Positions 33,317 through 63,437 of a DNA stretch of 64,000 nt are shown one piece after another. The notes beneath the pieces are model-generated. The model did not search any database. It was not told the origin of the DNA and saw only the letters and a list, made by a program, of their open reading frames with translations. How positions within the stretch are numbered: the stretch's first letter is position 1; every line of letters starts with the position of its first letter. The translations under genes and the position numbers were made by a program. The stretch is from Loxodes magnus (Eukaryota; Ciliophora; Karyorelictea; Loxodida; Loxodidae): NCBI GenBank assembly GCA_946699065.1, contig CAMPDV010002083.1, forward strand, positions 1 to 64,000. The letters run 5' to 3'.

Positions 33317-33887
33317 AAATTTATGTACTGAGTCAAAAAACTAAGACAGCTATTTATTTAGTCTTAAGAAGATTAAGGTAGTTTATTATAAATTAGATAA
33401 GTTGGGTTAACACTGATATGTGTAACTACTTGCTTGTCTGTTTATAAATTTGAAATTTATAGATGTGAATATAAATTCATACCTAGAAGAATAAAAGGAT
33501 TATTTAGAAAAGTTTATTCTTCATTTAAGGTTAATAACAAATAGAACTTTCTCTTTAAACTATCCCTATTAAGTTATAACTCAATATAATTGACCATAAA
33601 AATGAATAATTAACTTTTATCAAATTTTCTAATTTAAATTAAATGAATACTAAATTTAGGTGAAAGCACCCTTTATTATATTTTCTTTAAGATAAGAGAA
33701 CCAGAATGTAAATAAATAGTATAAATAATTATTTCAAATAGAGAAGAAATTATGCTATGAAGAAGAGAAAACTAACTTTTCATCATAAAGTAGTATAGTA
33801 CTTATATCTTACTTTCTATTTATTTATAGTTATATAAAATAGGATTTTAATATTTATATGAATTATTTAAAATCTATATAACTAACA
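33317..33887. other. Upstream region of the MORN gene; nothing else seen
   Basis: 570 bases of A/T-rich DNA between the MORN start and the duplicated segment. No motif can be singled out as promoter. Confidence 0.5.
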
Positions 33888-35328: not shown

Positions 35329-38196
35329 TCAAATAGACCCTTTATAAACTTTCATTAGATAATCCCAAGAAAAGGTTTATTATTTTTTATAAGTAGTACT
35401 GTTGTAAAGAATTATCTAGGGCTAGATATCTTTATAGTTCACTGGAAAGTTTATTAACTTTAAGTTTTTTGTTGTTTGCTCAAGTTTTTGCATTCTCACA
35501 GAGCTAAAAACTTTAGAATGAATACTTTCATTGTGACTTCATATAATATGCTTTCCTCTTGGAATCACTGGGCTTACAAAAGTTTTTCTCAAATTCTAGT
35601 TAAAATGTCAAAATGCTCTTAGAGGTCAATCACAACCGTTGAATATGCTTTTTAGTTCCTTTCAAATGTAATTTGGAAGTATAAAATTTCAATGCCACAT
35701 AGGTTTATCGAATCACACTTGATGCAAAGTTTAAATTTTAGTCAAATTTTTAGCATAACTTGTTATTGATGCTGCAGCTATTCTCTTTCCAAATTTATTA
35801 TTATGGATAAACTCTCTATTTATTCACTTACTAAACTCGAAAAAGTCTACTGACTAATAAACATCATCTTCACATCATAAAATTGACTTAGCTTTTAAAT
35901 GTTCAAATGTAAGGTTGAATAAGAAAAAAGCATTTGAGGCACATTGAAACTCTCCATCTTTATTCTAGCTTTTAAACTCATAAGGAGTTTCAGTTTTAGG
36001 ATGTTTTACATGAATAATATTTAAAATTCCTCTATTCTTGAAATCATTTATAACGTCTACAACTTATGAAGAATTACCATCTTAAGAAATTATTATAATG
36101 GTCTAGTTTATTCCATCTGCTCTTTCTATATGTGATAAAGTTTCATTTAAAATATCATGCTTCTTATAAGCAGGCATTACTATTGGATAAAGAGTTTCTG
36201 TATTAAAATTGAATCTTTTTATATAAGCATCATATTCTTTTTTGACTTATTCATAAATATCAGGATATCATTAATTAAAAGCATAAATTGGACATACTCT
36301 TCCATCTCAAACCATTTAAAGGAAGTTAGATTTTACTATCTATCCGTAATGATATCTACCCATTTTATATACATCTTAAAGATAAAAATTCTAATCTTAT
36401 TTGATTGGAAGAAATGTATAATATATACCTTTTATACTCAATTTTTTTCTAAATTAATTTATTGAATTTAAGGAAGCAGTTTCATGATTAAATGCTAAGA
36501 TTTTATACTAAGTAGAAAAATATAAGTTCCTAAACTCTAAAGGATTAAGATTTCCTACTATTTCATTGTTTCCTACTTCTGGATGATATTTCTTTACTAC
36601 CTAAGCTCCTATTCTGAATCTTATAGCTGTTTACATTAGTCTATAATAATCCTAATCCTCTATTTTAATCAATTTATCATTTATTTTTATTTAAGCTTTT
36701 GGATGTTTAGAGTTTTCTTATACATCAAAGAAAGAAGTTCCTAAAGCTGTTAACACTAACTAGATATTGTATCATTAATTTTGTTTTATTTCAATCTAAG
36801 TATCATAATAATTGCATCCTCTATCGGATCCAGTTTCAAGTGTAATAGTTCATTTTTGATTAGAATACACAAGATATAAGAAATAACCTCAGGTATAGCT
36901 AAAGGAATCACAACCTTCCATTTTATTTCCTAGAATAGCAAAACATTATTTATATTCTTTTTCAGTAGAGTTTTCTTAGCTTTAATTGAAAGACGATGAT
37001 GTATTATTTTAAAAGTTTAAGTCACTAAATTTAAACTTAACTCATACAGAAATATAGAGTTCAGGGAAGTCAAAGGAGCGAAAAGGTCCATGGATAATAA
37101 ATTGTTAGTTTTTCTTTAAGTTTATTAAGAATTTATTTTAAGCAGCTATTCTATTTCTCTATTTTAAAAGGTGATTAAGTTTTTTATTTTTCTAATTTAA
37201 AGTTTTGCTTTAATTCTATCTAATTAAAACTTAAATTTAATTTTTCCCTTCTTATTTAACGATTTTCTAACTAATATCTTCAGTTTTATTTTACTTATTA
37301 GCTTAATATGTTTTATTTTTTTATTTATTTATTTTCATTTTTCTTTAGTTTTGGATTTCTTAGTTGGTAATTTTCCTTTAATCAATTTATGATGTATTTT
37401 TATTAAATCCAAGACTATCATTTTTCCACTGATCAGCTCATATTTTGACTTTTTCTTTTTCTTTATTATATTCTTCCTCTGTATAAGCTACTTCTAATTC
37501 ATTTTCTTTATTATCATCTTCCTTATTCTAAGCTGTTTCTTATTCTCTTTCTTTATTATCATCTTCCTTATTCTAAGCTGTTTCTTATTCTCTTTCTTTA
37601 TTATAATCTTCATTTGTCTAAGCTATTTCTATTTAATTTGTCTAAGCTATTTCTAATCCACTTTCTTTATTACCCTCTTCCTTTGTCTAAGCTGCTTCTA
37701 TTTAATTTTCTTTACTATCATCTTCATTTGTCTAAGCTGTTTCTAATCCACTTTCTTTATTATAATCTTCCTTCATCTAAGCTGTTTCTATTTAATTTTC
37801 TTTACTATCCTCTTCCTTCATCTAAGCTGTTTCTATTTAATTTTCTTTACTATCCTCTTCCTTCATCTAAGCTGTTTCTATTTAATTTTCTTTACTATCC
37901 TTTTCCTTCATCTAAGCTGTTTCTAATTTGCTATCTAAATAGTGTTATTGCTTTCCTTAATAATTATTTGATTAATTTACTTGTTCTTCATTCTATCAAG
38001 TTGGTTTAAATTATTGAGACATATTAAAAGCTGGTTACTTCTTCTCAATCTTCAATAAACTAACATTTGAGAAATATTTCTTGTAATAAACGAATTCTAT
38101 TTTAATCTGGTATTAAAGCATTAGGATATAGAAGTAGACTACAAGAGTTATAGAGGTAATAGAAATAAAGAGTCTCAAAGCTTTTGAATTCTACAT
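35329..38196 (-). CDS. Lectin-GT13 glycosyltransferase, type II membrane protein (copy D, 955 residues, long repeat stem)
   Basis: ATG-TAG start at 38196 gives MQNSKALRLFISITSI and a hydrophobic anchor up to FYILML. This start fits the other copies in position and sequence. Residues about 85-260 are eleven acidic 15-residue repeats. A K/N/Q-rich stem follows. The lectin-like domain runs from HGPF (369) to about 540, with ISVWVKF and an ETGSDRGCNYY motif. The GT13 domain (about 670-945) has the EDD metal site near 776, WHWNFILPNYIWKEL, CDWPLRAFW with the probable catalytic Asp, and the end SWDYLMKVYKGSI-TGA at 35329. The frame is unbroken over 956 codons with TAA/TAG as Gln and internal TGA as Trp. 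Expected role: transfer of GlcNAc to a glycan in the Golgi lumen, with the lectin domain guiding substrate choice (inferred from GnT-I and POMGnT1). The long acidic stem is unique to this copy. Confidence 0.93.
37446..37930 (-). repeat. Coding tandem repeat, 45-base units (15 residues) in copy D stem
   Basis: Eleven imperfect units of consensus ETAQxKEDDxKExxx, one of them shortened. The TAG in each unit is read as Gln. The best-matched neighbours (near 37780-37920) are almost identical, so the array is still expanding or being homogenised. In other frames the same repeat yields long L/F-rich open frames on the opposite strand, which are not genes. Confidence 0.9.
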
Positions 38197-39528
38197 GAAT
38201 AATAAAAAATTAGATTTATAAAGCTTATTTAAATTCTAAGAAATTACACTAGTTATTAATTAAGCCTTTCTAATATCTAGTTTATTAAATCACTAGTTTA
38301 CTACCACTTCTACCTTCTTTAGCAATTAACTTACACTTTTAAAAGTCTAATTTAAGAATCAACTAAGGCATAAGCTTAACTTAGTTTGGCTAAGAAACAA
38401 TAACTTTAATTGCTAGTAGATTTAGCTTTTAATAGGTAAAATAATCTAATTTAAAAATAAATCTGCCATTTAGTAAGATTAATCCTTAGATTGGTGAGAG
38501 TTCTAACTATAAACAATTAATTACCAACTTACAACTAATTAATACAAGTCAAGAGATAAAACGACCTATTTATACTTGCAAATTAAGTACTTCGCTAAGC
38601 TATTTCTATATAGTAAAATAGATCTCTTAGCAATCAAAAATAGACGATTGATATGAAATAATTATTAATCTAAATCCTCTAATAGCATATCATATAATCA
38701 TTCTTAAAAAGCATTATTGTAAGAATAATACTCCAATCATTATTTAAGATAAGCATATTGCTAATTATTATTATATCTTAGTTATTTTCTTTTAGATGAC
38801 ATAGATCACAATAGAGATTTACATTCCATGCTGATACTTTAGAATCAATTAATAACTGATAAATAAGTATATCGATAATATCTAAATATTTCAATATAAA
38901 TGTATTGCAGTAAAAACAACAAGATTATAATTAAGCTACATAGATATCTAAAAACAAAGCTTTATTATAAATCTTAGAGCAAGTTATCTTTCTCTCATGT
39001 CAAAGTGTTAATTTTACTACATTGCTAAGACAACTAAGAATTGATGTCAATCTAAATCTCTTTTTTAGCATAGCTTTATACAAAATGATATATCAAATTA
39101 TGGTTGAAAAGCATTTAAAAATAATAAATATAGTGTATCTTATATGCTTTCATTCATTCAAACAAGCATATTAAGATTAAAATAAGCTATATCTTAAAGT
39201 AGCAAAGTAATTTCTTAATAAATAGTTGTTACAAGCCTTATAGGAGTTCTACAGTAACTCAATTTATCTTCTAAGTAACTAAACATTAAAATGTATTGAT
39301 GATTATCGTTCAAGCTTTCTTCTTTATATATCTAAAAATTGGTTAAAGTAAAATATAAAAATAATTAGATTTAATTATTTATCATACCTGCTAGTACATA
39401 TACCAAAGGTATATAATTAAAGTTATACTAAATTATTATAATTTAATTAATATTTCTTGTTCTTTCTGTAAAAATCAGTGAAACAGAAAGTTCTATCATA
39501 AAATTTTTATAGGTTAAATACGTAATTG
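38197..39528. other. AT-rich DNA, no gene recognised
   Basis: 1.3 kb upstream of copy D and of the plus-strand membrane protein gene. No motif or repeat seen. Any promoters here would be divergent. Confidence 0.5.
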
Positions 39529-40131
39529 AAGGTATTGGATTATGAAGATTATGAGAAAATAAATTTTTTTTTGTTATAATGAAATCAGGAAACCAACTTA
39601 AAGAGCTATTGTAGTAGTTAAATATATTAATAAAATAAATCGTCTAAACAAATAGAAAATAAGGGTAAACGTTCTTCGACTATAATCAGCTACAGAGAAA
39701 TTATTTATGAGAAAGGATTAAAAGCAAATAGTTAGATACTTAAATTAAGTACCAAATTTCTTTCTGAAATATTTCAATTTGATCCAGGTAGAAAGATAGT
39801 GTAACCAAACTTAATTGTAGTAAATTATGAAAATGAGGAAAACAAGTCGGTATTAGATATTAATTCGAATGAGAAAATCAATAAAGAAAATGAAATTCTT
39901 CTTAAGATTATTAAGATTTTACTCATTTGCATCTTATTTATAAAATGTATTTTTAAATTTTTCCATCAGAGTTAAATTTAAAGTTATATATCAACCTATT
40001 TTTTGTATACACATTTAAATAGATAATTAGAAACAAAGGATACACTACTTCAAATAAGAAAATATCAAATTAAAAGGGATTTTTTAAAATTGTTATTAGA
40101 AACGTTATCTTTAATCCCTCTTAGTATATGA
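39529..40131 (+). CDS. Possible membrane protein gene, function unknown (5' end unclear)
   Basis: A frame of 200 codons, from KVLDYEDYEKINFF to TGA at 40129-40131. It is poor in TAA/TAG and has only one internal TGA, near its 5' end, against high densities in the other frames. It reads as a soluble, N/K/E-rich part (SYREIIYEKGLKANSQILKL, QFDPGRKIVQPNLIVVNY). Then comes a hydrophobic segment of about 24 residues beginning EILLKIIKILLICILFIK at 39895-39960, and a shorter one (RDFLKLLLETLSLIPLSI) just before the stop. This suggests one or two membrane spans. No in-frame ATG is seen at the 5' end, so the true start may lie in an upstream exon. If the 40129 TGA were Trp the frame would run into the U1-like gene, which argues for a stop here. 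Confidence 0.45.
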
Positions 40132-40409
40132 TAGAGAAAAGATTTGAATAATAGCAATGAACACTAGAATAAAAGTAACAAACTTAAATAGTTAATATAG
40201 TATATTACTCAATTTATATAGGACTATTTTCAATAAACGTAAATAAATAAATTTGCTATAAGAGATATTATTATGTATCTAGGCTTTTAATCTATTTAAC
40301 TTAGCTATTTCATAGATATTTTTATTAATCAAGCTTTCAATATTATCATAGCTATTTAAATCCTTATTCCTTATGCAATACTTTATTATCCTTAATATAA
40401 GCTATATAA

Positions 40410-40582
40410 AAATTGGAGATCGACTGGAAATTGACTGTTGATTTCGATAGTTGCATTCTAGCAAGCAGAGATACGCAATTAATACTGAACACCAACACTG
40501 TTTAATAGCTCTCAACTTTGAGGGCAAAACCATTTCATTCTGATCTCACCCTTTCTATGCTTTTTAGAGGAAAGGTAAGTAT
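40410..40582 (-). ncRNA. U1 spliceosomal RNA candidate
   Basis: Read on the minus strand from 40582, the RNA would begin AUACUUACCU, the exact 5'-splice-site pairing sequence of U1. A stem-loop I follows that resembles U1 (GGGUGAGAUCAGAAUG... GGUUUUGCCC), including the GAUCA-GAA loop bound by U1-70K. Further stems follow, and a possible Sm site AAUUUCCAG lies near 40428-40436, with a pyrimidine/A-rich end. The block is clearly GC-richer than its flanks. The 3' end is estimated. Just upstream (plus strand 40600-40665) lies another GC-richer stretch with a small CTTTAT/ATAAAG hairpin, possibly the snRNA promoter. Short introns are expected in ciliates, so a U1 gene is natural. Confidence 0.6.
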
Positions 40583-41969
40583 TATATAGATGATATCATA
40601 GAGAAACAAGAAATTGAACTTTATGCGGTTCGATAAAGCCGAAAGACGAATCTATCTTATCTTATCTTAATTTAATCTTAATTATAAGCTATAAGCTGGT
40701 ATTTAGTATTATATTAATAAATTATCTTTTCTTTGCTTAAGTTATCAAATTAACTTAAATTAGATTAAGAAAATGAAATCTATTAATTTTTACTCTATCT
40801 GCAAGACTAAAGCTTTATATAAGAATAATGAGTAAATCTAAATAAAAAAGTAAGCACTTATTTAATAAAGGACTTTCAGAAATATCCTAAAATATATCAT
40901 TAGAGTATGATTTTTAAATAGATTGATAGTAAATATGAGAATTGCTCTCTACTCTAGCTAGTTTACTGTAACTAAGCATATATTAATAAGATATATTACA
41001 TATTTGCCTTTAAAATAACATATTGCTTTTAGAGCATAGAGAAGAAATTATGCTAAGAAATAAAGTATTAACTAGCATATGAACATAAAGTAGTATAGTA
41101 CTCATAACTGATTATATATTAGCTTGTAGCTATATAAAAGAAGGCTTTTATATAGTTGTATTAATTATTAACAAATACTCTTTATATCTACTTTAAAAGG
41201 CTATTACTTGATGGTAGAATATTTTAAGAGTTTAAAATTATTAAAGTCTAAGAATAATAAAAGTTAAATGGAAGATGGAGGGAGAAGGTAGAGATAGATT
41301 GTTTAAAGTTTCGTTAATAAAAAATAATTATTATATTATAGATTAAAGCTAAAGCTAATTATCTTAAATCTAGTTCTTAAGTTATTCAATTATTTAAATT
41401 GAACATCTATTATTAGCTTCTTAGATAAGCTAAGAGGTTTTTAGCTTTTAATATAAAATTTAAATGTAATAAAGTCAAATAAAGGCTGTAGAACTAAATT
41501 ATTTTCTACCAAGATTTAAAGGGTACTTGTTAAAATATTACGAAGCTTTTTCCGTGAAAAGCTAGTCTTTTGATTTCTTTTTATGAGCAATGCTAAATAA
41601 ATTTTCTTATATATTTAAGATTATTAATCAAAAATGTTCTATAAAAACAAATAATTTTCTACTCTAATCAGCATCAACTAATATCTTTAGAATTAGTTTA
41701 GCTAGCTTTATGTAAATCTTTATTATTAATTTAACCTAAGACTTTATTATTTTCACGTTGCCTTAAATTTCATTCTTCATATTAAAGTGAATTTATGGCC
41801 ATAATCATAGATTAATTTCTAAGAAGATATATTCATAAGCAAATTTTTATCCAAATAGTATAAATAACTAAAGAATAGATAAGGAGAAAAGAATGAGAAA
41901 TTATTTAAACTATATGATTGAACAAAACCAATAAAATACATATTCATAAGTAAAATCACATAATTAAGA
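40583..41969. other. AT-rich DNA; possible snRNA promoter at the left end, otherwise no gene recognised
   Basis: The stretch 40600-40665 has a hairpin and unusual G/C content and is the natural place for the U1-like promoter. The remaining 1.3 kb shows no motif. Confidence 0.4.
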
Positions 41970-42684
41970 AGCTAGTTATAAGATACTAATCCATATTCTT
42001 TTTTACCAAAAGTAAAAGAACAATTAAGCTAAGATAAGCATTCTATACTTATAAAATTACCTTTTCTTCTTTAGGAATTGTAATAGATCTAAAGAACTCT
42101 ATCATATTACTCTGATAACTCTAATATAAAAGTTACTTTATCATACTCTTATTGATATCTTATGTATTCTTCTAGTTTAATAGGAATATAAGATATATTA
42201 GTACTCTAAGATTTACTCATTATAATTATACTCTCATACTAACTATCAAATCTTTATTATAAACTTAGTTGTTATATTCGAGAAGGTAGAAATACCTTAA
42301 CAAATATCTTCATTATTTTAACTTGTATTAACTAAGAAGTTATATGAGTTAGCTTTTATCATTTAAAGTATGAATATAGATTGAATATGTATATAATTAA
42401 ATAAAGAGTATAAAGCTTTAAATATAATATAAAAAGTTATAATTAATTCAAATCTTTCCTTTGTATACTTTCATTAGAAAATCCCACGAAAATGTATCTG
42501 TTGTTTTCAAAATTGTACTATCGAACTAAAGCAAAATCTCAGGTCTCTAATCTGTGTAATTCACTTGGAAATCTATTAATTATAAAGTTTTAGTAATTTT
42601 TTCTAGGTTTTTATAGAGTGCAAGATTAAAACTTTTAGAGTGAACACTATCATTATGACTTCAAGTTATATGCTTTCCTCTAGG
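41970..42684. repeat. Segmental duplication, copy 2 (partner 33888-34610)
   Basis: Includes the 3' flank and 3' end of the intact gene at 42448-44922. See the partner entry. Confidence 0.9.
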
Positions 42685-44922
42685 AATCGCAGGACTTATA
42701 AAAGTTTTCCTTAAATTTATATTGAAATGCCAAAATGCTCTGAGAATTCAATCACAAGGAACAAATACACTCTTTAGTTCCCTCCAAATATAATTTGGAA
42801 CTATAAAATTTCAGTGCCATTTTGGTCTATCAAATCATACTTAATGCAAAGATTAATTGTTTGTAACATTTCTAGCATAGCTTGTTATTGACACTGCACC
42901 AATTCTTTTCCCATACTTATCATTATGAATAAACTCTCTATTTATTCACTTACTATACTCGAAAAAATCAACGGACTAATAAACATCATCTTCACATCAT
43001 AAAACTGATTTTGCTTTTAGATGTTCGAAAGTAAGATTGAGCAAGAAAAAAGCATTTTAAGCACAGTAAAACTCTCCATCTCTATTCCAATTTACAAATT
43101 TTTTATAATAAGTTTAAATATCTAAAGGAATCTCCGTTCTAGGATGCATTACATGAATAATATTTAAAATTCCTCTATTTTTAAACTAATTTATGATATT
43201 TGAGACCTATGGTGAGTTTCCATCTTAAGAAATTATTATAATGGTCTATTTTATTCCATCTGCTCTCTCCATATGCTATAAAGTTTCTCTTAAAATCCTA
43301 TGTCTTTTATAAGCAGGTATGACTATTGGATAGAGTTCTTCCACATTAAGTTTAGATCTCTCTATAAATGCTTCATATTCTTTTTTGACTTATTCATAAA
43401 TACCAGGATATCATTAATTAAAAGTATAAGGCAAACATTCTCTTCTATCTCAAGCCATTTAAAGAAAATTAGATTAAGCAACTTATCCGTAATGATATTT
43501 TCCTATTCTATATACATCTCTAAGAAAAAATCTCTAATTTTCTTTGCTGGGTAAAAATGCGTAATATTTTCCTTTTACTGGCTATTTTTTGTAAAATTCA
43601 TGAATAGAATTTAAAGAAGCTGTTTCTTAGTTAAAACCTTAGTTTAATAGATTATACTAAGTAGAAAAAAAGAAAGTCCTAAACTCTAAAGGATTAAGAT
43701 TTCCTACTATTTCATTGTTTCCTACTTCTGGACTGTATTTCTTTACTACCTAAGCTCCTATTCTGAATCTTATAGCTGTTTACATTAGTCTATAATAATC
43801 CTAATCCTCTATTTTAATCAATTTATCATTTATTTTTATTTAAGCTTTTGGCTTTTTAGAGTTTTCTTATACATCAAAGAAAGAAGTTCCTAAAGCTGTT
43901 AACACTAACTAGATATTGTATCATTAATTTTGTTTTATTTCAATCTAAGTATCATAATAATTGCATCCTCTATCAGATCCAGTTTCAAGTGTAATAGTTC
44001 ATTTTTGATTAGAATACACAAGATATAAGAAATAACCTCAGGTATAGCTAAAGGAATCACAGCCTTCCATTTTATTTCCTAGAATAGCAAAACGTTATTA
44101 ATATTCTTTTTCAGTAGAGTTTTCTTAGCTTTAATTGAAAGACAAAGGTATATTATTTTAAAAGTTTAAGTCACTAAATTTAAACTTAACTCATACAGAA
44201 ATATAGAGTTCAGGGAAGTCAAAGGAGCGAAAAGGTCCATGGATAATGAACTACTAATCTTTTTTCAAACTTATAAGGAAATCAGTTTAAGAAGGAATTT
44301 TTTTCTTGTATATATGCTTATTATTGGACTGCTATTCTTTTTAAAGCTTAATTTTCTTCTAATTATTATTTTTAACTGCTTAAGTGTATCCTTTGATACT
44401 AATATTTGTTGACTAAAGAGAACTTTGATTATTTATTTTTTTATCTTAAGGAGTATTATTTAACCTCTGCTATTAATCACCAACTTAAATATTTAGGTAC
44501 CCTAAGCTTTTATTATACTACTTAAGATTTCCTTCTTCTTTTTTCATATTAAAATCTTAACTACTATAGCTCTACTAAGAGGCAGGTTTTTCTTTAGTTT
44601 TCTTTTTAATGAAAAATTTATTTCTCTCATACTAAAATATCTTCGTTCCGTTCTATTTTAATCCTTCTTATTCAGTGCTAACCTACTAAGCTTATACCAT
44701 TCTATCTAGATTGCTACTTGCCTAGGTTATATTTCTCTGCTGTTTTGATATATTTAAAACTTTTTGAATTTTCTCTATTTGAGGAACAGCCTTCTAGTTC
44801 TAATCGTTCTTTTCAATGAAAAGTATCTGTATTTGAAACTAAGAGACTATGATATAGAGGTAAGCCAGTATTGAAAGACAGCTTAGAGCAGCAAAGAGTT
44901 AGAGGAGCTTAGAGGTTTGCAT
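42448..44922 (-). CDS. Lectin-GT13 glycosyltransferase, type II membrane protein (copy F, 824 residues)
   Basis: Starts ATG-CAA at 44922 with MQTSKLLQLFAALSCLSILA leading to YLYIIVS, the signal anchor. Residues about 35-225 are a Q/N/K-rich stem without the acidic repeats of copy D. The lectin-like domain begins at HGPF (228) and is almost identical in DNA to that of copies D, G and 61023-63437. The GT13 domain carries the EDD site, WHW, CDWP and the end SWDFLMKVYKGKI-TGA at 42448. The span is 825 codons and both halves keep frame. It has a seven-residue insertion just before NWNRDGE (near 43096-43130) compared with the others. Same expected Golgi role. Its 3' end was the source, or a sister, of the fragment at 34367-34610. 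Confidence 0.92.
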
Positions 44923-50900: not shown

Positions 50901-51406
50901 TGCTTATAAACTACTTTTTAAACAAGATCTCCAAAATTTTATATCCACTTAAAAAGAGCTCGATGTGGAATTAAGAGATAGATTTTCAGAGAAATAATTG
51001 AATATAAATAAAAGTAGCTTAGTAAGAGTCACAGAAGAGAAAAGAAAGATATAATCAAGTAAGAAATACCACAAATTAAGAATTTATAGGCTAAATATAT
51101 TAACTATATGAAGTAACTATTTAGAATGATAAATTAATTAATTATATGATATATTCCTTACTTCTAGTCTTAATATAATCAATTATTAAACTTATTAATC
51201 AAAATCATTTAATAGGCTAAATTTAAAAAATGAAAAAGAAGGATAAAAAGAAGTTTAGAGTAACTAAAAAAAATTTAGAAATATATAAAAAAAATCATGT
51301 CGATTGTATCAGTTAAAATTTAATGATATATAAAGTAGCTAATATATATAATAACTACTTAGAGAAAAAATAAACTTTAAATTTTAATTAAAAGTATTAA
51401 AATAAT
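44923..51406. other. 6.5 kb AT-rich region, genes undecided
   Basis: No motif, RNA or repeat match identifies a gene. Two stretches read as good protein in one plus-strand frame: about 47466-48250 (K/N/I-rich, helical) and about 50625-50995 (Q/K-rich then L/I/Y-rich). Rival frames read nearly as well, since no codon is a sure stop, so they are not called as genes. A minus-strand frame at 50607-50876, open even in the standard code, is probably a shadow of the second stretch. Confidence 0.4.
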
Positions 51407-53836
51407 TCAAATTCTTCCTTTATATATTCTCATTAAAAAATCCCAAGAATAGGTCTAAGTTGTTTTTAAAATTGTACTATTGAGCTAAAGCAAAATCTCG
51501 GGTTTCTAATTTGTGTAATTCAGTTTGAAATCTATTAATTATAAATATTAGATCATTACTTCTAGTTACTTTTAACTCTCAGGGTTCAAATCTTTAGAAT
51601 GAACACCATCGATGTGACTTCAAGTTATATGCTTTCCTCTAGGAATCGCAGGACTTATAAAAGTTTTCCTTAAATTTAAATTAAAATGCCAAAATGCTCT
51701 GAGAATTCAATCGCAAGGAACAAATACACTCTTTAGTTCCTTCCAAATATAATTTGGAAGTATAAAATTTCAGTGCCAATTTGGCCTATCAAATCATACT
51801 TAATACAGAGATTAATTGTTTGTAACATTTCTAGCATAGTTTGTTATTGACACTGCACCTATTCTCTTCCCATACTTATCATTATGAATAAACTCTCTAT
51901 TCATTCACTTACTATACTCGAAAAAATCAACGGACTGATATATATCATCTTCACATCATAAAACTGATTTTGCTTTTAGATACTCAAATGTAAGATTGAG
52001 AAGAAAAAAAGCATTTGATGCACATTGAAACTCTCCATCCCTTTTCCAGTTCTTAAAATCTTAAGGAGTTTCTGTTTTAGGATGCATTACATAAATAATA
52101 TTTAAAATTCCTCTATTTTTAAATTCTTTTATGACATCTAAAACCTCTGATGAATTACCATCTTAAGATATTATTATTATAGTCTAGTTTATTCCATCTG
52201 CTCTTTCCATATGCTATAAAGTTTCTCTTAAAATGTTATGTCTTTTATAAGCAGGGGTTACTATAGGATAAAGTGTTTCTATACTAAGATTAAATCTTTT
52301 TATATAAGCATCATATTCTTTTTTTACTTATTCATAAATTTCAGGATATCATTAGTTAAAAGTATAAGGTAAGCATACTCTTCAATCTCAAACCATTTAA
52401 AGAAAGTTAGACTAAGCAACTTATCCGTAATGATATTTTCCTATTTTATATACATCTCTAAGAAAAAATCTCTAATTTTCTTTGCTGGGTAAGAAATTAT
52501 AATATTTTCCTTTTACTGGCTATTTTATTCTAAATTCCAATATAGAATTTAATTAAGCTGTTTCTTAGTTAAAACCTTAGTTTAATAGATTATACTAAGT
52601 AGAAAAATATAAACTCTTAAACTCTAAAGGATTAAGATTTCCTACTATTTCATTGTTTCCTACTTCTGGACTGTATTTCTTTATTACCTAAGCTCCTATT
52701 CTGAATCTTATAGCTGTTTACATTAGTCTATAATAATCCTAATCCTCTATTTTAATCAATTTATCATGTATTTTTATTTAAGCTTTTGGATGTTTAGAGT
52801 TTTCTTATACATCAAAGAAAGAAGTTCCTAAAGCTGTTAACACTAACTAGATATTGTATCATTAATTTTGTTTTATTTCAATCTAAGTATCATAATAATT
52901 GCATCCTCTATCAGATCCAGTTTCAAGTGTAATAGTTCATTTTTGATTAGAATACACAAGATATAAGAAATAACCTCAGGTATAGCTAAAGGAATCACAG
53001 CCTTCCATTTTATTTCCTAGAATAGCAAAACGTTATTAATATTCTTTTTCAGTAGAGTTTTCTTAGCTTTAATTGAAAGACAAAGGTATATTATTTTAAA
53101 AGTTTAAGTCACTAAATTTAAACTTAACTCATACAGAAATATAGAGTTCAGGAAAGTCAAAGGAGCGAAAAGGTCCATGGATAATGAACTACTAATCTTT
53201 TTTCAAACTTATAAGGAATTTACTTTAAGGAATAATAATTTTTTTTTACATCTACTAAACAATAGCTTTCTTAACTTTTTAAGAGTACTCTTATTGTTTA
53301 TTTTTATCAATATAATTTGTATTTAAAGTTTAGTTTACCATTGTCTAATTTTTTAAGGTAACTTGTTCTGTTTTATTAAAGTTATTGCTGTCTAGAACAC
53401 TTTAATCTGATTATAAAGTTTTCAATATATTTAAATAATTTTACTCTTGGATAGTGTTGTTTTATTAATAAATCTTAGAGTAGCTGGTTGTTTATTATGG
53501 GACTTTGATATTTTTCTTCTTTATTAAAGTTTTAATTTTATCCCATCCAATTAGCTGAGTTTCGTTTTACTAATATTCCTCTTAATTGGTCTTTTTCTAT
53601 CTAATATCTTATATTTAGCTTAACTTTTCTTCATTAAAGGCTATATCTTACTAATTTGAAATATTCAAAGCCATTTAGATTTGTTCAAAATTTGAAGGAA
53701 CAGATTGATATTTCTAGTGTTAGTTCTCAACTAATATGATAGTAATATTGTACTAAGAGGTGATGATGTAGAGGTAAAATATAATAGAAAGGCAGGAAGC
53801 AGGTATAAAGAGGTATAGTAACTTAATGGGCTACAT
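51407..53836 (-). CDS. Lectin-GT13 glycosyltransferase, type II membrane protein (copy G, 809 residues)
   Basis: ATG-TAG start at 53836: MQPIKLLYLFIPASCLSIIF then YLYIITS, the family's tail and anchor. The stem (about 40-218) is Q/N/K-rich. HGPF is at residue 220. From there to the TGA at 51407 it has 591 codons, exactly as in the copy at 61023-63437, to which it is very close in both lectin and catalytic domains. EDD, WHWNF, CDWP and SWDFLMRIYKGRI are all present. Internal TGA codons align with Trp in the sister copies. It is head to head with 61023-63437 across 7.2 kb, so the two form a large inverted repeat with a divergent spacer. Role as for copy D. Confidence 0.93.
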
Positions 53837-56800
53837 TTTTAAATTATAGTATTTAACTTTTAATAAATTCATCTTATTAAATTATATATATGTCTTCCCT
53901 TTTATCTATTTAGCTTAACTATATTCACTTTCTCTTCCAACTATCCTGCTAGGAAGTGATAAGTCAGGGATTAAAAAGCTTTTAAAAAGTAACTGGTTAG
54001 TGGAAATTGCAAAGAAGGTATCTAATTGATAGATATTTAGCACTTTTGGTAAGATATTTTAGCTCTTATCACTTAATTATTTAATTTATTTACCTATTTG
54101 GAGTTTTTCAAAAACTAGATAGGAATAGATTTATAAGAGGAACAGTTGCTAAGCAAAACTATTTTTTGGTTATTTAAGCTTACTGTAATTAAGTCTATTA
54201 TACCCTTGAATCAGGCTAAAAAGGATTAATATTCTTATTAACTTTGATGGTACTTGAAATTAAGGAAAAATAGGATAAAGATGTTAAAGACACAAATATA
54301 AAAGATTCTAAAATAAACATATATAAATTGAAAGTATATGAGAATATAAAAAGAATGCATTAGGAGCTTACAAACACATTAGAGTTACCATAAAGTAAAG
54401 ATAAAGTAGTTAAGATATAGCTTATATAATACACGCTATTTTAAGATAGAGTCTAAAAGATAAAACTCTATATATATAAATTTATAAATATCTGAATATT
54501 TAAAGGCTATCCAATTAGATAGCTCCAACTACAAGAAATATGTTCTAGCCTTTTAGTTATATTTGCTTATTTTAATAATCTACCTTATTCTAAGAAAAGC
54601 TTGTATAAATTATATTGCTTTTAAGATAATAAAGTAGAGAGTAGAAATCATAATATTATCAAGCTAAACAAAAAATTATCTTAGAATGTTTGAAGCTTCT
54701 AGAGACTTAAAAGAAATATATTGAAGAGACTATTAGTAAAATAAGTGTATTTTACATCTTTATTCTGCTTTTAGAGCACTAAGGATTATTTTATTCACTT
54801 TAAAATGTTTGCTAACTTGAGAACTAATCCATAAGTATTTTATACGATTAAATGATTTAAAGCTTATTAAGAATATAATAGCTTAAAATTACACTTTTTA
54901 GCTTTAATAAAGGAAGAAGTTATTTATATTAATGAAAGCTTATAAAGAAGCATTTGGTATTATAGCTTAGAGCTAATACATTTATAAAGCAAAGTACATT
55001 TCACTAGATATTAGTCTGAGATTTGTTGATTATAGCTAAGGAAGAACTATTCAATGAAATAACTTAAATTTTAATAAGGAATTTAATTAAATTTCATATG
55101 ACAACCTCTATATGCTTAGTATGAGAGAAATCAAATTGCTTCATACTATAATTAAGATTTAAATGATACAAACTTAGAAGGATGAATTATCTTTACAATG
55201 AAATATAAGATTGTATAACTAAGTTTACAGAAGTATCCATTTATAAGTCTGATTTTTAACTAAGTCAAAAGAGAAACTTCTATACAAATTTTAAGGATTT
55301 TAGCAATTAGGATCTTATTTTAATGAGTAGGATTTTTTATACTTACTTTAAGGGATTCTAATTTATGCGCTTAGATAAATTAAAATTATAGCAATTTGAA
55401 GATAAATAATAAAAGTAAGGTAAAGCAACTTAAATTATAGAGCTAATTCTATATAAATTATAAAAGAGTAAGCTAAAGTATAGCTGAGATTTACTTACAC
55501 TAATTAAAATAAGAAAGTGACACTAAAATTAATAGCTTACAGCTCTAAAATACATAGAATTTCTTGAAATAAGATGAAAACTCTTATTTGGTTTTAATAT
55601 CTTTGCTAAAATAATAAGTATCTTTTATAATAAGCTTATAGATTTTAATTTTTATAATATTCACTAAATTTAATTAATTTTAGGTATAAAGGAAAAGATT
55701 GGCTTAATGACTATATATTTAAGGAATTAAATTTAATAAATCAAAATAATTTTAAACTTAAAAATATTGTACTATTATAAGTTGAGTATATTACTGTTTG
55801 ATATATGTTTGATTGATATATAAAGGAATAAGTAACTTAAATATAATAGAAAATTATATCAGATATTTATTTTAATCTGTTAATTATGATAAATTGCTTT
55901 AACTTTAAGACATCAAATTGTAAATTAACTTTAAAAGTTCAGAATGTTGCTATATCTTATTTAAACTCTGCTTTGCTATCTGAATATATACTTAGATATC
56001 AATTTGATTGAGTTACTACTAAGAAGTTTTAAGAACTTATTGTCTTAATTTACTTTTTATCTTGCTGAATATGAAATGATTGCGATGAGCTATTTTATCA
56101 AGATAAATTTATGTTTTTGCTCATAAACAAGTTTATTTATTTTCAGGTGGAAGGAATTTCCCAAGTTTGATTGGTAGATTCTGATAATTTTATGTAATCC
56201 TTCGATATAATTCTACTTTGGTTTTAAAAACTAAGAAAGACGTAAATTTGAAACTTTTATAATACTCTAACCTAGTAGCGAATCTTTTTTAAGTTTTGAT
56301 TTATATATTTAAATCTATAAAATTTCATAACTGTATTATTTGCTTGAATGTAATAATTTGAATATTAATGCTTCTATATTATTTCTATCTTTTCTTCTAA
56401 TAAATAAAGATTATAAAAGTAAGACAGATAGCTATTGTTAGTTAAGAAGATCTAATTAAATATTTTATCTAAATTCTCTAAATTATACTTAAATTACTTA
56501 CTTACCTTTAGCTTTTTTTCAAACTTTATACCCAAGTTACTTATTAAACTACTTTAACTTTCTATATTACGTTTTTCATATAAATCTATCTGAGGATATG
56601 AACACATTAGCCTTACTAGCTTTCTTTATAGATTTTAATATTTTGGTTACAAAAATCAGGGTAAATAGCATGATTGAAAAAGTTGGAAACTATGAAAGAT
56701 AAGACAATAAATATGGAAAACTTGAGTTTGTACATAAGTTAAGAAGAGATAGCATTAAACTAACTAGAAATAGTAAAAATAACTAAGTGATATAGAAATA

Positions 56801-59459
56801 GACAATACTCTATTAGAATAAAATAACTTAATCTATGTAGCTTTAAAATACACTAAGTATGAATAGCTTAAGTAATAGATATTAACTAATTTTAATTTAG
56901 ATTTATTTTAAGCAATTTAACTACTTAATAAATGATTTCAGTCTAGTAAAATCAGGATAACACGTTCTTAAGGATACCATATTATTCTAGTGGTTTGTTA
57001 TATTTAGTTAGTCAAATTTAATACATTTACATCTATAGTGCTTAACTTGCTTTATATTAGATGAATTTGAATCTTTTATATTTTAAGAGGTTTTAAATAA
57101 AAGATATTTTAAATTTAAGCTAGTGAAATAAATCTTAACTGATATAATCACATCATTTTAACTATCCTAAGAGTTTAAATTATAAGAAAGATAATTTTTA
57201 AACAAGGATTAGTCAATTAAATGAAAATTCAATTCAAAAGGGGGCTAATTGGTATTAAGAATTATCATTCTTAGTATGATTATACTATGTATTGATGATT
57301 AAGTATCAAGTATCCTTTAATTTTATAACTAATTTAATATATTGCCTGATATACAAATCAAGACATCTTTATATGAATTCTATGGTTTTATTATATCTAA
57401 GCAAATAATAATATAAATAAGTGAGATTATTACCAAAAAAGTAATCATATAGTCCATAATGAAATGCATACCAAAAGCAATTATAACTTAGAAAGGAGAA
57501 ATCTATTCTCTTTAAATTATTGCTTTTTATATGTATTGTTTTGCTTCTAGAAACTCATTTATACTAAGAATAATTTTTATCTATGTAAAATACTATTTTT
57601 TGCTTCTCTCTAGAATTAAATTTAGATTGCCCCTCAGAGTAATTTAATTATACTATCCTTACTATTATTTCTTCACAATCATAAAGAGTGATATTATAAT
57701 TCAAACGATATTTCTATATATCTGTAAATCATTTTCGGTATAATTGAAGATATTAAAAGTAAAAAGCCCAAAGTAATTAATAAAGTTGGATAACTAAAAA
57801 GCTAAAATTACTGTTAGCTAACTAATTTATATCCACCCTTAAACCTAGAAAGAACTCATCTGCACTAATTAGTTTTATTAATTTTGTTCCTTTATCCACT
57901 GTGATTTACTCTTAGTATTGATTTGATATATAGTGAAAATAATTTTCTTATAGCTTTAGTTTATCATTCGTCCTTTTATTTAAAACTTGCTTTTTATTTA
58001 ATTATTAATTATAATCATAGAAAGCCTTTATCGTTAATAAAATGTATGATATATTATATCCACTAGATTGACTGACTATATATCTATATCTAAAATTTAA
58101 ATTGCTTTGCTAGATTTACAATACTAACTTTACTCTTTATATACCAATCAAATATAAATCTCTAATTGCATTTAGAAACAAATTAACTACACTTTGGTTA
58201 TGGAGCTACTCAAAATTTATACTGGGTTGGATCTTAGGTTAACTAATTGTTCACAAAAGGAGGTAAATCTGTGCTAAATAGGAGAATATACAATATAGTT
58301 ATAATATCTAAGTCAAAAAAGAAAAATTTAGCAATAAGTATTTTGAAACTAAAGAGCTAGTATTATAATATAAAATGGGATAATTAGCTTTACTTTTATG
58401 TGTTAGAGTAAATAATGCTTATATAGTTAATAAGTTATTCAGATTTATTCATCTCTAATACTTTATTTATCTGAAATTTTATAATGTAATTAACTAATTC
58501 ACTCATGAAATTTAAGCAGCAGCTTAATGGGAAAATTAGTATCTTATTAGTTTCCTTTACGTTTCATGCGTTATAAGATATATCTTAAATTATTATTAAT
58601 AAAGGCTTACTAATATACAGGTAGTTACTTTATAGATTAAATAGTAAATATTAAAGTTTATTGGTTTAATATAAGATGACATATCATATCTTCTTATACA
58701 TTTTTTAGAGTATTACTATAACTATTAGCATTGGTTTTGTCTTTTTATTCTAACATAAATATATTGCTCTGTTCTAATAAATATGAGATAAACTCCAATA
58801 CTTGGAAATACCTCATGTCACCTAGTCATAAAGTTATTTTCTTGATATTTAGCAAATGTATTAAGTAATTAAGAATAATATGTATATTCACATCCTATAT
58901 AAGCTATTTTAGAAATATAATTACTAAACTTTTATCCTTCTTTATAGCTCTTATATCCTCAATCATGCATCAGTTATAAGCCTCTTTAGATGTATTTAAA
59001 GTCAATTATATATACATTTTATTTCAAAAATCTAAAAATTACTTATAGATCTTTATAATTTTCTAAACTTTTTAAGCATTTTGCTAGAACAATTCTGGAT
59101 TATCTAATAATTATCTTAATCATATTTATGTATTTACTCTAACTTTTAGGGTTAGATATTTTTTAAAGTTTAAGCTTCTATTTATCTCTAGTACTAGAAC
59201 TTTTCATTTAAGTTTATCTATTTTATAAATTTAACATCACAGTCTTATAATAAATTCCTACCATTTTCCTTATAAGATATTCTATAATTACTTCAACTTT
59301 AAAAATTCATTGCAACAAGTTTAAACTCAATGCTTCATTTCAGTGTAACTACCAATTAACAAATTTCTATAGGTTTAATAGACAAATACCTTTTTAGTAG
59401 TTTTATATATATAATTTAAATAGGGTGGACATTGCCTCTAAAGGTTACTAACATATTTA
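53837..59459. other. 5.6 kb AT-rich spacer, no gene recognised
   Basis: Lies between the heads of copies G and 61023-63437. Uniformly A/T-rich with dense TAA/TAG in all frames; no motif, RNA gene or repeat found. Confidence 0.5.
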
Positions 59460-59700
59460 ACAAGTATCAACTGACTCAGAAAACCTTCTAAGTGAAGGAC
59501 CAGTTTTATCTCTTCATCATGGATTGAAAATTTGCCTGTAATCGCCTGTTGGCATCCTGTGCTTTGGAGAGTTGGAACCGTAACCTCGCTCATAATTAGA
59601 AGCAAGAATTCAAGGGGAATATTGGGAATTTAAAAACTTTAAAATTGACTTCTTATAGTGCTGCACACCATTGAGGTGCTGCGCACACTTTAATAAAAGT
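59460..59700 (+). mobile_element. Fossil fragment Z8, related to Z7
   Basis: Isolated GC-richer block in A/T-rich surroundings. One plus-strand frame reads FACNRLLASCALESWNRN and ends with the block shared with Z7 (HHWGAAHTL, W as TGA). Upstream frames hold W/C-rich stretches. It looks like a worn piece of the same coding element as 24500-24830. No ends or partner genes visible. Confidence 0.35.
59662..59679 (-). repeat. 18-base motif shared with 24527-24544
   Basis: On the minus strand GCACCTCAATGGTGTGCA, 17 of 18 bases as at 24527-24544. It lies in the protein block shared by Z7 and Z8. Confidence 0.5.
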
Positions 59701-61022
59701 ATTTTTTAAATGAATTTAATCTAGTATGCTCTATAACTTAAAGGATGTTATTAAGTTAATGAAGCTTAAAAATGTTAGTTTTTAAGTTCAGTATATTTAA
59801 TAATTTCTTAATAATCAGAATAATTTAGTACTCTTCTATCTACTTTTATAACTAATTTAGGAGTTTATTGCTATTTCTTAGGTTTAAAAGTTTTAGGTTT
59901 ATAGGATTTTAAATAGAAATGAACATATAACTACTCTATCTTTTAATAGTTGTACTCTTTTTTACTAAGATATAACTCTTTTAAACAAATATTAGATTTA
60001 AGTAATTTATACTTATATAGATGTATTAAATATGCTAATAAGGCTTTAGACTTTTAAATATAATATCTTATATATTATTTCTAATCTTTAGTAAGGTAAA
60101 AGCTATTGATTGACAAGCTTCCCTTTCAAATAATTATATTTTTATCCTAAAAAGCTCCAAGTTGCTTAGCTTTTGATTTATTTCTTAGATATAGTATAGA
60201 GTATGAAACTTAAGACTTAGATAATCGATTATCAAAGAATCGTACATACGAGATTAGATAAACTCTTTATTATCTACACATAAATAACCAAAATTAATTA
60301 TCACTTCAAAGACTACAAATTTGCTTAGTCTTCGATATTAAACTAACAATCTAATACCTTAAAATTTCTTGATTCATTTATGCTTAAACTAGCAAATCTA
60401 AACTATACTTAAGTTTTAATTAACTAAACTAAAATTTATTTAAAAGTATCAAAAGTCAAAATTTCCAGGGTAATTTTTTAAAAGGAGTTTAGACTCTCTA
60501 AAGATGATAAATGAAGATTTAAATTTGAACTTTAAGCTTAAAAAGATTTTTTAGTTTATAGTATAATTATATCCCATTAATATAGCAGATAAAACAGTAT
60601 AGAATAAAAAATAGAAAATGATAAATAGCATTAAGATCATTTAATGAAAGCGAGAAGAAAGAAAAGAAAATAAATTAAAATTAGATTATAAATTATACTA
60701 ATTTTTAGTTTTCTTAGGTATAACAAAGTATTTTTGCTAGCTTAGCATTTCTTTTAATTTAAGATTACTATTTTTAATTATTAGGTATATCATCGTATGG
60801 TTATATTTTAAATAAGAGTTTTCTCTTTTTCTGATATATTAAGTTAAGATATTTAAAGTCTTATATTCTAATTTTCTCTAGTTTTTCAATTATCATTGAA
60901 GCTAAAGTAAGTATTACCAAATTATTTTTAACCTAGTTGCATATTGAGCTTAGTTAGAGATTATGAATATAAGATGCTTTATTAGTTTAATTTAATTTAT
61001 TTACTTAGCATATCATTTAATA
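59701..61022. other. AT-rich DNA upstream of the glycosyltransferase gene
   Basis: 1.3 kb with no recognised gene. The promoter of the gene at 61023 should lie near its right end; no shared upstream element with the other copies could be found by eye. Confidence 0.5.
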
Positions 61023-63437
61023 ATGCAAATCTCTAAGCTTCTTTAACTCTTTATAGCTATCAGCTGTCTTTCAGTGCTTATTTACCTTTACATCATTACT
61101 TCGCAGTTTTAGATAGCTATTTTATTCATTGAAAAGGATCATTAAGACTGGTAAAAAACTTCCACTAAGATAGAAAATATAAAAATACCTTTAAATATAT
61201 CAAAGAAGCTGAGTGGAGAAAGGCAGATTGATAAAACCTCAGATAAAGAAGAAATTCCTCAATGGTAAAATACTAGTTAAGTAGATAAAAACTAGAATGC
61301 TATAAGAAACAGTAATAAGGAAGAAAATAACCACTCAGTCTAAAAAAAAAGCAGCATTGCAACTGCTAACTGAAAAAATATAAGCTAAGCGGAATAAGAA
61401 CTTTTCAGTATGAAAAATATATAAATTAAAAGTAGCAGCCTAGATTAAAGAAATATAAGCAATATAACTAAATTATAATTCAGAAATATTACTTAAGAAC
61501 AAAGAAATTCAAATAAGTCTAATATTACTAATATTACTAATATCAAAAGATAACAGTACTCTTAAAAAGTTAACCAAGCTATTGTTTAGTAGAGATTAAA
61601 GAAAATTAACCCTCCTTAAGCTAATTTCCTTATAAGTTTGAAAAAAGATTAGTAGTTCATTATCCATGGACCTTTTCGCTCCTTTGACTTTCCTGAACTC
61701 TATATTTCTGTATGAGTTAAGTTTAAATTTAGTGACTTAAACTTTTAAAATAATATACCTTTGTCTTTCAATTAAAGCTTAGAAAACTCTACTGAAAAAG
61801 AATATTAATAACGTTTTGCTATTCTAGGAAATAAAATGGAAGGCTGTAATTCCTTTAGCTATACCTGAGGTTATTTCTTATATCTTGTATATTCTAATCA
61901 AAAATGAACTATTACACTTGAAACTGGATCTGATAGAGGATGCAATTATTATGATACTTAGATTGAAATAAAACAAAATTAATGATACAATATCTAGTTA
62001 GTGTTAACAGCTTTAGGAACTTCTTTCTTTGATGTATAAGAAAACTCTAAACATCCAAAAGCTTAAATAAAAATACATGATAAATTGATTAAAATAGAGG
62101 ATTAGGATTATTATAGACTAATGTAAACAGCTATAAGATTTAGAATAGGAGCTTAGGTAGTAAAGAAATATCATCCAGAAGTAGGAAACAATGAAATAGT
62201 AGGAAATCTTAATCCTTTAGAGTTTAGGAATTTCTTTTTTTCTACTTAGTATAATCTATTAAACTAAGGTTTTAACTAAGAAACAGCTTAATTAAATTCT
62301 ATTCATGAATTTTACAAAAAATAGCCAGTAAAAGGAAAGTATTATGCATTTTTACCCAGCAAAGAAAATTAGAGATTTTTTCTTAGAGATGTATATAAAA
62401 TAGGAAAATATCATTACGGATAAGTAGTTTAGTCTAACTTTATTTAGATGGTTTGAGATGGAAGAGTATGCCTTTCTTATACTTTCAACTAATGATATCC
62501 TGAAATTTATGAATAAGTAAAATAAGATTATGAAGCATTAATAAAACAATTTTAATTTAATACAGAAGAACTCTTTCCAATAGTAATGCCTGCTTATAAA
62601 AAACATGCTATTTTAAAAAATACTTTATAGCATATGGAGAGAGCAGATGGAATAAACTAGACTATTATAATAATATCTTAAGACGGTAACTCATAAGAAG
62701 TTTAAGATGTAATAAATGAGTTTAAAAATAGAGGAATATTAAATATAGTTCATACAAAACATCCTAAAACAGAAACTCCTTAAGATTTTAAGAACTGGAA
62801 TAGGGATGGAGAGTTTCAATGTGCATCAAATGCTTTTTTTCTTCTCAATCTTACATTTGAGTATCTAAAAGCAAAATCAGTTTTATGATGTGAAGATGAT
62901 ATATATCAGTCCGTTGATTTTTTCGAGTATAGTAAGTGAATAAATAGAGAGTTTATTCATAATGATAAGTATGGGAAAAGAATAGGTGCAGTATCAATAA
63001 CTAATTTTGCAAGAAATGTTGCAAACAATTAATCTCTGTATTAAGTATGATTTGATAGACCAAATTGGCACTGAAATTTTATACTTCCAAATTATATTTG
63101 AAAGGAACTAAAGAGTGTATTTGTTGCTTGCGATTGACCACTTAGAGCATTTTGGCATTTTAATTTAAATTTAAGGAAAACTTTTATAAGTCCTGCGATT
63201 CCTAGAGGAAAGCATACGGCGTGAAATAGTAATGATAGCATTCATTCAAAATATTTCGATGCAAAACGAATGAAGATATTTGAGAGTTTAACTGGAAACT
63301 TAAAGCTTATTGACTTTTCAGTAAATTACAAAGATATAAAACCTTAGATTTTGCTATAGTATAATAGTACAATCTACAAAACAACTTATACCTTTTCATG
63401 GGATTTTCTAATGAGAATATATAAAGGAAGAATTTGA
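61023..63437 (+). CDS. Lectin-GT13 glycosyltransferase, type II membrane protein (copy H, 804 residues)
   Basis: Read codon by codon over 805 codons without a break. Residues 1-5 are cytosolic (MQISK), 6-25 the signal anchor (LLQLFIAISCLSVLIYLYII). About 30-210 is a stem rich in N, Q, K and S. HGPF at 215 opens a concanavalin A/laminin-G-like domain (ISVWVKFKF, TITLETGSDRGC, QWYNIQLVLTALG, FRIGAQ) to about 385. A linker leads to the GT13 domain: FPIVMPAYKKH (518), ISQDGN, the metal-binding EDD (624-626) followed by DFFEY, WHWNF, CDW with probable catalytic Asp 704, and the end SWDFLMRIYKGRI-TGA. GnT-I has the matching sequences EDD, DFFEYF and DDWMR. Fourteen internal TGA codons sit at Trp positions, against six TGG. 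Expected to transfer GlcNAc from UDP-GlcNAc in the Golgi lumen. Acceptor unknown; a POMGnT1-like role is possible because that enzyme also has an N-terminal lectin-like domain. Confidence 0.95.

Follow-up and report, generated by a model that had tools for sequence, protein, structure and literature searches.

A very large family of apparently lectin-fused, GnT-I-like glycosyltransferases in the ciliate Loxodes magnus

GnT-I (MGAT1; rabbit structures 1fo8, 1fo9 and 1foa) is a member of glycosyltransferase (GT) family GT13 and the gateway enzyme of complex N-glycans. It has an anchor and a stem, is usually encoded by a single gene or by few genes and, to our knowledge, carries no laminin-G domain. 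In this study, we describe genes of the free-living ciliate Loxodes magnus found in contig CAMPDV010002083.1, bases 1-64000 (the window, i.e. the whole stretch of 64,000 nucleotides analysed). Their predicted products share with GnT-I the topology of anchor and stem, a GT-A domain for which GnT-I is the best profile and fold match, and an EDD motif with similar surroundings. They differ from GnT-I in being lectin-fused and in belonging to a family of at least 249 loci. Apparently, a known kind of enzyme occurs here in an unusual fused form and in unusual number, and evolves partly by gene conversion.

POMGnT1 (GT13; 5ggf, 5ggi) is described as having an anchor, a carbohydrate-binding domain and a catalytic domain in the order found here, but its stem domain is FAM3-like, not laminin-G-like (PMC9802357). 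An earlier reading of the window without database searches (the sequence-only reading) had called the architecture unusual; a GT13 enzyme whose stem holds a carbohydrate-binding domain is already known in POMGnT1, and it is the laminin-G fusion that differs. MGAT2 (GnT-II, GT16; 5vcm) is a further relative with a weaker match. Large families with repeated expansion are known from other protists. For the UDP-glycosyltransferases of trypanosomatids recombination has been analysed; these organisms, however, are parasites, cell-surface decoration is the main role, and the abstract names no laminin-G fusion (PMC5853035). Table 1 of a glycosylation survey lists Alg3, Alg9 and Alg12 as undetected in Tetrahymena, Paramecium and Ichthyophthirius, and Alg3 and Alg12 as present in Oxytricha (PMC4973528). 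Among the literature matches listed, titles and abstract openings mention neither a laminin-G/GT13 fusion nor a GT13 expansion in ciliates, and the main text of the L. magnus genome paper contains the word glycosyltransferase 0 times (PMC11441545). A free-living protist seems to hold hundreds of loci for lectin-fused relatives of GnT-I, part of them apparently shuffled by gene conversion. This raises the question why a single cell uses so many glycan-capping enzymes.

Gene copies in the window and the family in the genome

The published macronuclear assembly of L. magnus comprises 706 Mbp; its description gives code 27, in which UGA is the sole stop and also encodes tryptophan, very short introns (mode 17 bp) and a median 3'-untranslated region of 41 bp (PMC11441545). 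The genome searched here held 705,730,643 bases on 7,843 contigs. We read all sequences with the karyorelict code (table 27), i.e. TAA and TAG as Gln and internal TGA as Trp. Table 11 left the window with zero open frames of at least 150 amino acids (aa). Table 6 broke the genes at TGA and gave many competing frames on both strands, which table 27 resolved. A tblastn search of the window with the protein of copy G under table 27 found seven related genes and one C-terminal scrap:

About 110-1930, minus strand: copy A, broken, from the lectin part onward; the pieces that tblastn found in two minus frames share 34-76% identity with G
About 6745-8558, plus strand: copy B, frameshifted; split by tblastn into pieces in three plus frames whose query ranges overlap
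About 19181-20993, minus strand: copy C, frameshifted; tblastn pieces in three minus frames
34370-34525, minus strand: scrap from the C-terminus of an eighth copy, aligned by tblastn with G residues 753-804
35329-38196, minus strand: copy D, whole, 955 aa, open under table 27 to a TGA stop; long stem
42448-44922, minus strand: copy E, whole, 824 aa, TGA stop
51407-53836, minus strand: copy F, whole, 809 aa, TGA stop
61023-63437, plus strand: copy G, whole, 804 aa and a TGA stop at 63435-63437

The seven copies share 76-90% DNA identity over about 1.8-2.0 kb, which excludes chance. Copies D, E, F and G are intronless, each in one frame from Met to the TGA stop, with 12-16 internal TGA codons per copy, the last of them 70-71 codons before the end. 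The matches of copies A, B and C begin at the lectin domain and are spread over several frames with overlapping query ranges, so that anchor and stem are seen in the four whole copies only. These results bear out the sequence-only reading, which had counted seven copies within 64 kb, four of them whole; its span, 35329-63437, runs from the stop codon of D to that of G and covers the whole copies. The reading of TGA is also supported by a family alignment (A4) of 21 members, copies D-G and 17 relatives from elsewhere in the genome. At four nearly invariant columns with at least 80% Trp it holds 64 TGA and 18 TGG codons, which supports internal TGA as Trp in this family.

The four whole proteins begin with a signal anchor and a variable stem rich in Q, N, K, E and S; a sandwich of concanavalin/laminin-G-like type follows, and then a GT-A domain. 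Their N-terminal hydrophobic segments reach Kyte-Doolittle maxima of 2.13-2.37, and Q, N, K, E and S together make up 54-59% of the stems. The stem of copy D consists partly of 45-nt (15-residue) tandem repeats (37453-37929, minus strand). The predicted layout is given for copy G, all on the plus strand:

61023-61109, plus: signal anchor (residues 1-29); 19-residue Kyte-Doolittle maximum of 2.37 at residue 7, helix 4-28 in the model
61110-61622, plus: variable stem (residues 30-200); 56% Q/N/K/E/S in residues 31-190
61623-62207, plus: concanavalin/laminin-G-like lectin domain (residues 201-395); beta strands in the model, LamG_3 in relatives
62568-63227, plus: GT-A catalytic domain (residues 516-735); best match GnT-I by Protein Data Bank (PDB) profile and Foldseek
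62892-62900, plus: EDD motif (residues 624-626), aligned to the EDD of GnT-I in an 11-member profile alignment
63132-63134, plus: Asp704, candidate catalytic base; Asp in 16 of 21 members

Past residue 60 of G, no 19-residue Kyte-Doolittle value exceeds 1.6. The lectin domain of D-G is placed by homology to relatives and by the model of G. Laminin_G_3 (PF13385) is found in 17 of the 21 alignment members at an expect value (E) of 0.01, yet Pfam did not match it in D-G scanned whole. In the AlphaFold2 model, most ten-residue blocks of this region of G have a predicted local distance difference test score (pLDDT) of 73-93, with low loops. The pentraxin 3flp stands at Foldseek rank 30 for the model of G residues 195-804 (E 1.2e-5, TM score 0.44 to the target); we take this match, whose aligned range is not displayed, to be the lectin sandwich. 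Through its relatives, the domain before the GT domain of D-G appears to belong to the Laminin_G_3/concanavalin A-like lectin superfamily. The lectin proposed by the sequence-only reading thus holds at the level of the family and by the pentraxin among the fold hits, but not by a Pfam match in D-G taken whole. FAM3/ILEI was not among the domains listed in the Pfam scans of family members, in which the domain preceding the GT domain matches LamG_3 in relatives.

The family extends far beyond the window. Searches of the genome with six protein queries (G, L006, L001, L002, L004 and L055) gave 56, 74, 63, 63, 65 and 81 rows, with 56 of 1060, 62 of 761, 63 of 658, 62 of 604, 65 of 668 and 77 of 613 first-look candidates scored. 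The 402 rows merge into at least 249 loci, a lower bound because only the best candidates per query were scored: 186 loci matched over both domains, 62 over the GT domain only and one over the lectin domain only. GT-only rows are often short matches, and the window's own D, F and G appear as such with the L006 query. At least 56 loci are matched by the G query. The remaining 193 lie on 113 contigs; 14 of these share contigs with window-type genes, none of the 14 matching over both domains, and at least 179 lie on 104 contigs free of window-type genes, 130 of them matching over both. The ten loci contributed by the L055 query belong to contigs of the latter kind. Since some loci are near-identical repeats (e.g. 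four on contigs C309, C330 and C597 with one common score), the number of distinct genes is smaller than that of loci. When 501 bases of the lectin region served as a DNA query, all of the best 40 of 247 candidates were 98-100% identical to it, and six of these 40 loci are absent from the 56 matched by the G protein. A scan of viral contigs with the family alignment gave 60 pattern matches, none confirmed as a relative.

Among 18 sampled members (G and 17 relatives), pairwise identity reaches 75.7% at most, with a median of 25.5%. A tree of 21 members groups D-G, with full support, in a single clade that sits on a long branch. A genome search with the GNT-I family matched seven loci, all similar to D-G over lectin and GT domains (blastp, best E of each 2e-69 to 2e-35). 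Because these seven GT13-scoring genes align over the lectin domain too, the fusion seems to be the standard form, and the ordinary one of a very large family, as judged from sequence similarity. It is hence not special to the cluster in the window, which corrects the sequence-only reading, and the seven copies, though present, understate the size of the family.

Catalytic domain and predicted fold

Taken whole, the window proteins are nearly invisible to Pfam. D has no match, E and F match MGAT2 at 22.8 and 21.8 bits (cut-off 27), F with three weaker matches besides, and G matches only SIS, under its cut-off. An exon-sized piece of G (62496-62885) reaches 27.5 bits with MGAT2, slightly exceeding that cut-off, and 12.8 with GNT-I, the latter far under its cut-off. 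The identification of GT13 and lectin domains therefore rests on relatives. Four of the seven GNT-I-scoring loci (L001, L002, L006 and L007) were covered by a Pfam scan of whole relatives. L001 and L002 pass both cut-offs (LamG_3 39.8 and 28.2 bits, GNT-I 38.6 and 42.4 bits), L006 passes that of GNT-I only (LamG_3 21.1 bits, cut-off 27.6) and L007 that of LamG_3 only. The profile search by which the sequence-only reading proposed to check its GT13 assignment accordingly fails for D-G one by one and succeeds for L001, L002 and L006.

Comparisons with the PDB agree with each other. Rabbit GnT-I was matched by family profiles with E 1.3e-10 (7 members), 7.3e-9 (11 members) and 1.5e-11 (21 members). 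In the last search MGAT2 had an E of 0.026, and chondroitin synthase was the next match after GnT-I. An AlphaFold2 model of whole G from 11 sequences had a mean pLDDT of 55.7 and was poor outside the GT domain; its first fold hits were GnT-I, POMGnT1 and MGAT2. The model of residues 195-804 from 21 sequences was better (mean pLDDT 77.7, predicted TM score 0.81), and Foldseek placed GnT-I first (1foa, E 2.2e-13, TM score 0.59 to the target), then POMGnT1 (5ggf), then MGAT2. For both models 1foa was the best hit. GnT-I is thus the best match in all five PDB comparisons, three by profile and two by fold, and outranks MGAT2 in each kind of search. The GT-A core expected by the sequence-only reading is present in the predicted fold of G. 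We regard the assignment of the family as GT13-like, of the GnT-I/POMGnT1 kind, as well supported, although D-G singly lack a GNT-I Pfam match.

The EDD motif is kept in 19 of the 21 members, with EED and QEN in one each. Asp704 of G may correspond to the catalytic Asp291 of rabbit GnT-I. L002, L007, L054 and L055 form a clade in which His replaces Asp704, and their sequences suggest that they have perhaps a different mechanism or acceptor.

Multiplication and mosaic structure of gene types D to G

The subfamily of the window is multiplied in the genome: its four gene types D-G occur on at least 22 contigs. At least 56 window-type genes were found on these, and 19 of the 22 contigs hold two or more. 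Thirty loci of G, F or E type on 18 contigs, taken together with as much as 1.5 kb of flanking sequence, are 95-100% identical to the window; G loci are comparable only up to the window end, and for L015, L018, L022, L026, L028 and L035 the match covers part of the locus. Contig C1170 carries the F-E-D set twice, in opposite orientations, as F, E, D followed by D, E, F and a G gene. The reading frame is intact in all 30 genes cut out (8 G, 17 F and 5 E, the window's F and G included; D-type genes of other contigs were left out), and lengths within the G, F or E type differ by multiples of three only. Distinct coding sequences number 8 of 8 for G, 14 of 17 for F and 5 of 5 for E.

The genes look like mosaics, in which stem and C-tail are private to each type and lectin and catalytic core are exchanged between types. 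Synonymous divergence (dS) of the stem is 0.94-1.08 between types and 0.000-0.013 within, and that of the C-tail between types G, F and E is 0.48-1.44. The lectin part, in contrast, has a dS of 0.026-0.028 between the G, F and E types and of 0.024-0.028 within types, so that it is no more different between types than within. Purifying selection could explain the identity of the lectin protein but not the low dS. Within-type dS climbs to 0.08-0.13 in residues 396-660. Fixed differences in residues 1-200, 201-515, 516-735 and 736-804 number 277, 0, 10 and 54 between G and F, 383, 5, 57 and 60 between G and E, and 347, 0, 3 and 37 between F and E. The one D gene compared takes part less, with a lectin dS of 0.126-0.131 to the other types.

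One F gene, L031, carries a tract of E type: 41 of 41 informative sites at codons 504-599 are E-type, together with the 21-nt insertion of E, whereas F-type sites reach as far as codon 198 and resume at codon 673. With no informative site between codons 198 and 504, the tract has an open left end. A run of 41 E-type sites was reached in 0 of 10,000 shuffles. In residues 396-735, another type shares the minor allele at 73-100% of the polymorphic sites. Gene conversion would most simply explain these mosaics; consensus mixing in a repeat-rich assembly is a possible source as well.

Selection acts unevenly along the genes. The ratio of nonsynonymous to synonymous divergence (dN/dS), given as simple sums over non-independent pairs, is 0.25, 0.16 and 0.37 within types G, F and E for residues 516-660 and 0.14-0.23 between types. 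For the stem it is 0.59 within G, 0.81 within F and 0.62-0.93 between types. Constraint is evident in the catalytic core and barely so in the stem.

Proposed function, alternatives and neighbouring genes

The genome contains matches to enzymes of the N-glycan pathway. ALG3 is matched at C16:1470164-1471162 (370.5 bits), GH47 in 19 rows, of which 12 span almost the full model, and GH38 in 11 rows. A search with one protein O-mannosyltransferase model (PMT, PF02366) gave no match from two candidates, while control genomes matched in 7 of 14. As family searches of this genome were not exhaustive (that with GNT-I itself gave only seven loci), the matches obtained carry weight, whereas the PMT negative carries little. 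Taken together, the presence of ALG3, GH47 and GH38 and the PMT result favour N-glycans as acceptor. The GH47 and GH38 mannosidase families also look expanded in L. magnus.

We propose that the genes encode glycosyltransferases of type II membrane topology that most likely reside in the Golgi and have a short cytosolic tail, a signal anchor and a flexible stem, followed by a concanavalin/laminin-G-like domain that is probably carbohydrate-binding and by a GT-A domain of the GnT-I/POMGnT1 kind. The likely chemistry would be metal-dependent transfer of N-acetylglucosamine (GlcNAc) from UDP-GlcNAc to alpha-mannose, probably on trimmed N-glycans. The lectin domain may bind the acceptor or product glycan and set the substrate that each enzyme finishes. 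Ectopic gene conversion would swap lectin and catalytic segments between types D-G, with stems and C-tails private, and so yield mosaic enzymes. What we infer is the location in the Golgi, the donor sugar, mannose as acceptor, the ligand of the lectin domain and the purpose of the diversity. For this reading in its entirety, i.e. lectin-guided Golgi enzymes of GT13 kind that add GlcNAc to N-glycan mannose and whose subfamily is re-assorted by gene conversion, we lean towards yes, with considerable reserve. The lineage-specific glycan suggested by the sequence-only reading may exist and is now helped by the ALG3, GH47 and GH38 matches. Because of these matches and the lectin-GT family, complex N-glycans in ciliates become directly testable.

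Several observations weigh against this proposal. None of D-G taken whole passes the Pfam cut-offs of GNT-I, MGAT2 or LamG. At E 0.01, MGAT2 (GT16) matches 17 of the 21 members and GNT-I 9, the MGAT2 matches being weaker (best E 1.1e-5 against 1.8e-11), so sequence leaves GT13, GT16 and a sister family undecided. The Asp704 column holds Asp in 16, His in 4 and Asn in 1 of the 21 members. L042 (C21:1225991-1227997) has QEN for EDD and Asn at the Asp704 column, and is perhaps without catalytic activity, to judge by these residues. The anchors of L002 and L007 are weak (hydropathy 1.29 and 1.37). Minor-allele sharing is also 50-100% in residues 1-200 (5 of 10, 22 of 27 and 1 of 1 sites) and 25-78% in the C-tail, with few polymorphic sites in stem and tail; being high in residues 1-200 too, sharing alone proves little. 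Finally, copy numbers derive from a repeat-rich long-read assembly, part of whose size its authors attribute to misassembled low-complexity repeats in the published account (PMC11441545).

The enzymes could instead extend protein O-mannose as POMGnT1 does, the lectin domain binding the GlcNAc product like the POMGnT1 stem domain. POMGnT1 is the second-best kind of fold hit, and its domain order is the same (PMC9802357). We nevertheless think this unlikely: the PMT needed for the POMGnT1 acceptor found no match among its two candidates while ALG3, GH47 and GH38 did, and the POMGnT1 stem domain is described as a FAM3-like beta-beta-alpha fold, not a laminin-G sandwich (PMC9802357). Another view is that the family is GT16-like or re-purposed, having left GnT-I chemistry, with members adding different sugars to different acceptors. 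The number of members matched by MGAT2, the low median identity, a candidate catalytic base that differs between clades and chondroitin synthase as next profile match all point this way. Set against GnT-I as best match in every PDB comparison and the EDD kept in nearly all members, this view appears doubtful to us, though it deserves some weight.

Two further explanations concern the multiplication of the window's gene types. It might reflect mainly uncollapsed haplotypes or misassembled repeats, with mosaics as consensus errors. Identical copies do exist: L023 (the window's F) and L024 on C3775 agree at 100% over 5,418 bases. Yet C1170 by itself holds two inverted F-E-D sets plus one G gene, most coding sequences are distinct, all frames in the cut-out genes are intact, and the mean synonymous difference within F is 12% (residues 516-660) against a heterozygosity of 0.6% stated in the genome paper (PMC11441545). 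We judge this explanation improbable, and the at least 179 loci on other contigs are independent of it. That the multiplied region is a mobile element with lectin-GT genes as cargo would fit the 30 genes cut out with flanks from 18 contigs, whose agreement of 95-100% with the window extends beyond the genes and occurs in both orientations. A codon-usage scan, however, found four stretches besides the lectin-GT pieces, for which Pfam gave MORN, PARP and two blanks; neither a transposase nor a reverse transcriptase was among the Pfam results for these four stretches, in a scan insensitive enough to miss copy A. A mobile element therefore strikes us as distinctly unlikely.

Returning to lectin-guided N-glycan enzymes re-assorted by gene conversion, a bolder extension would be a glycan-diversifying system, in which ectopic conversion continually re-assorts lectin and catalytic modules among dozens of GT13 genes that each have a stem of their own, so that a lineage or clone would gain its own mosaic enzymes and, through them, its own surface glycans. 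We give it a slim chance. If true, it would be variation acting on sugars, not on protein antigens.

Rfam (gathering threshold) and tRNA scans of the window gave no matches. A 730-bp duplication with 94.55% identity links 33868-34597, which holds the lectin-GT scrap, to 41951-42679, which holds the end of copy E. Two neighbouring genes were recognised:

25182-26366, minus strand: gene with a PARP catalytic domain (PF00644, 41.1 bits)
29681-32617, minus strand: MORN-repeat protein gene (PF02493, 362 bits), with internal DNA repeats of about 345 bp

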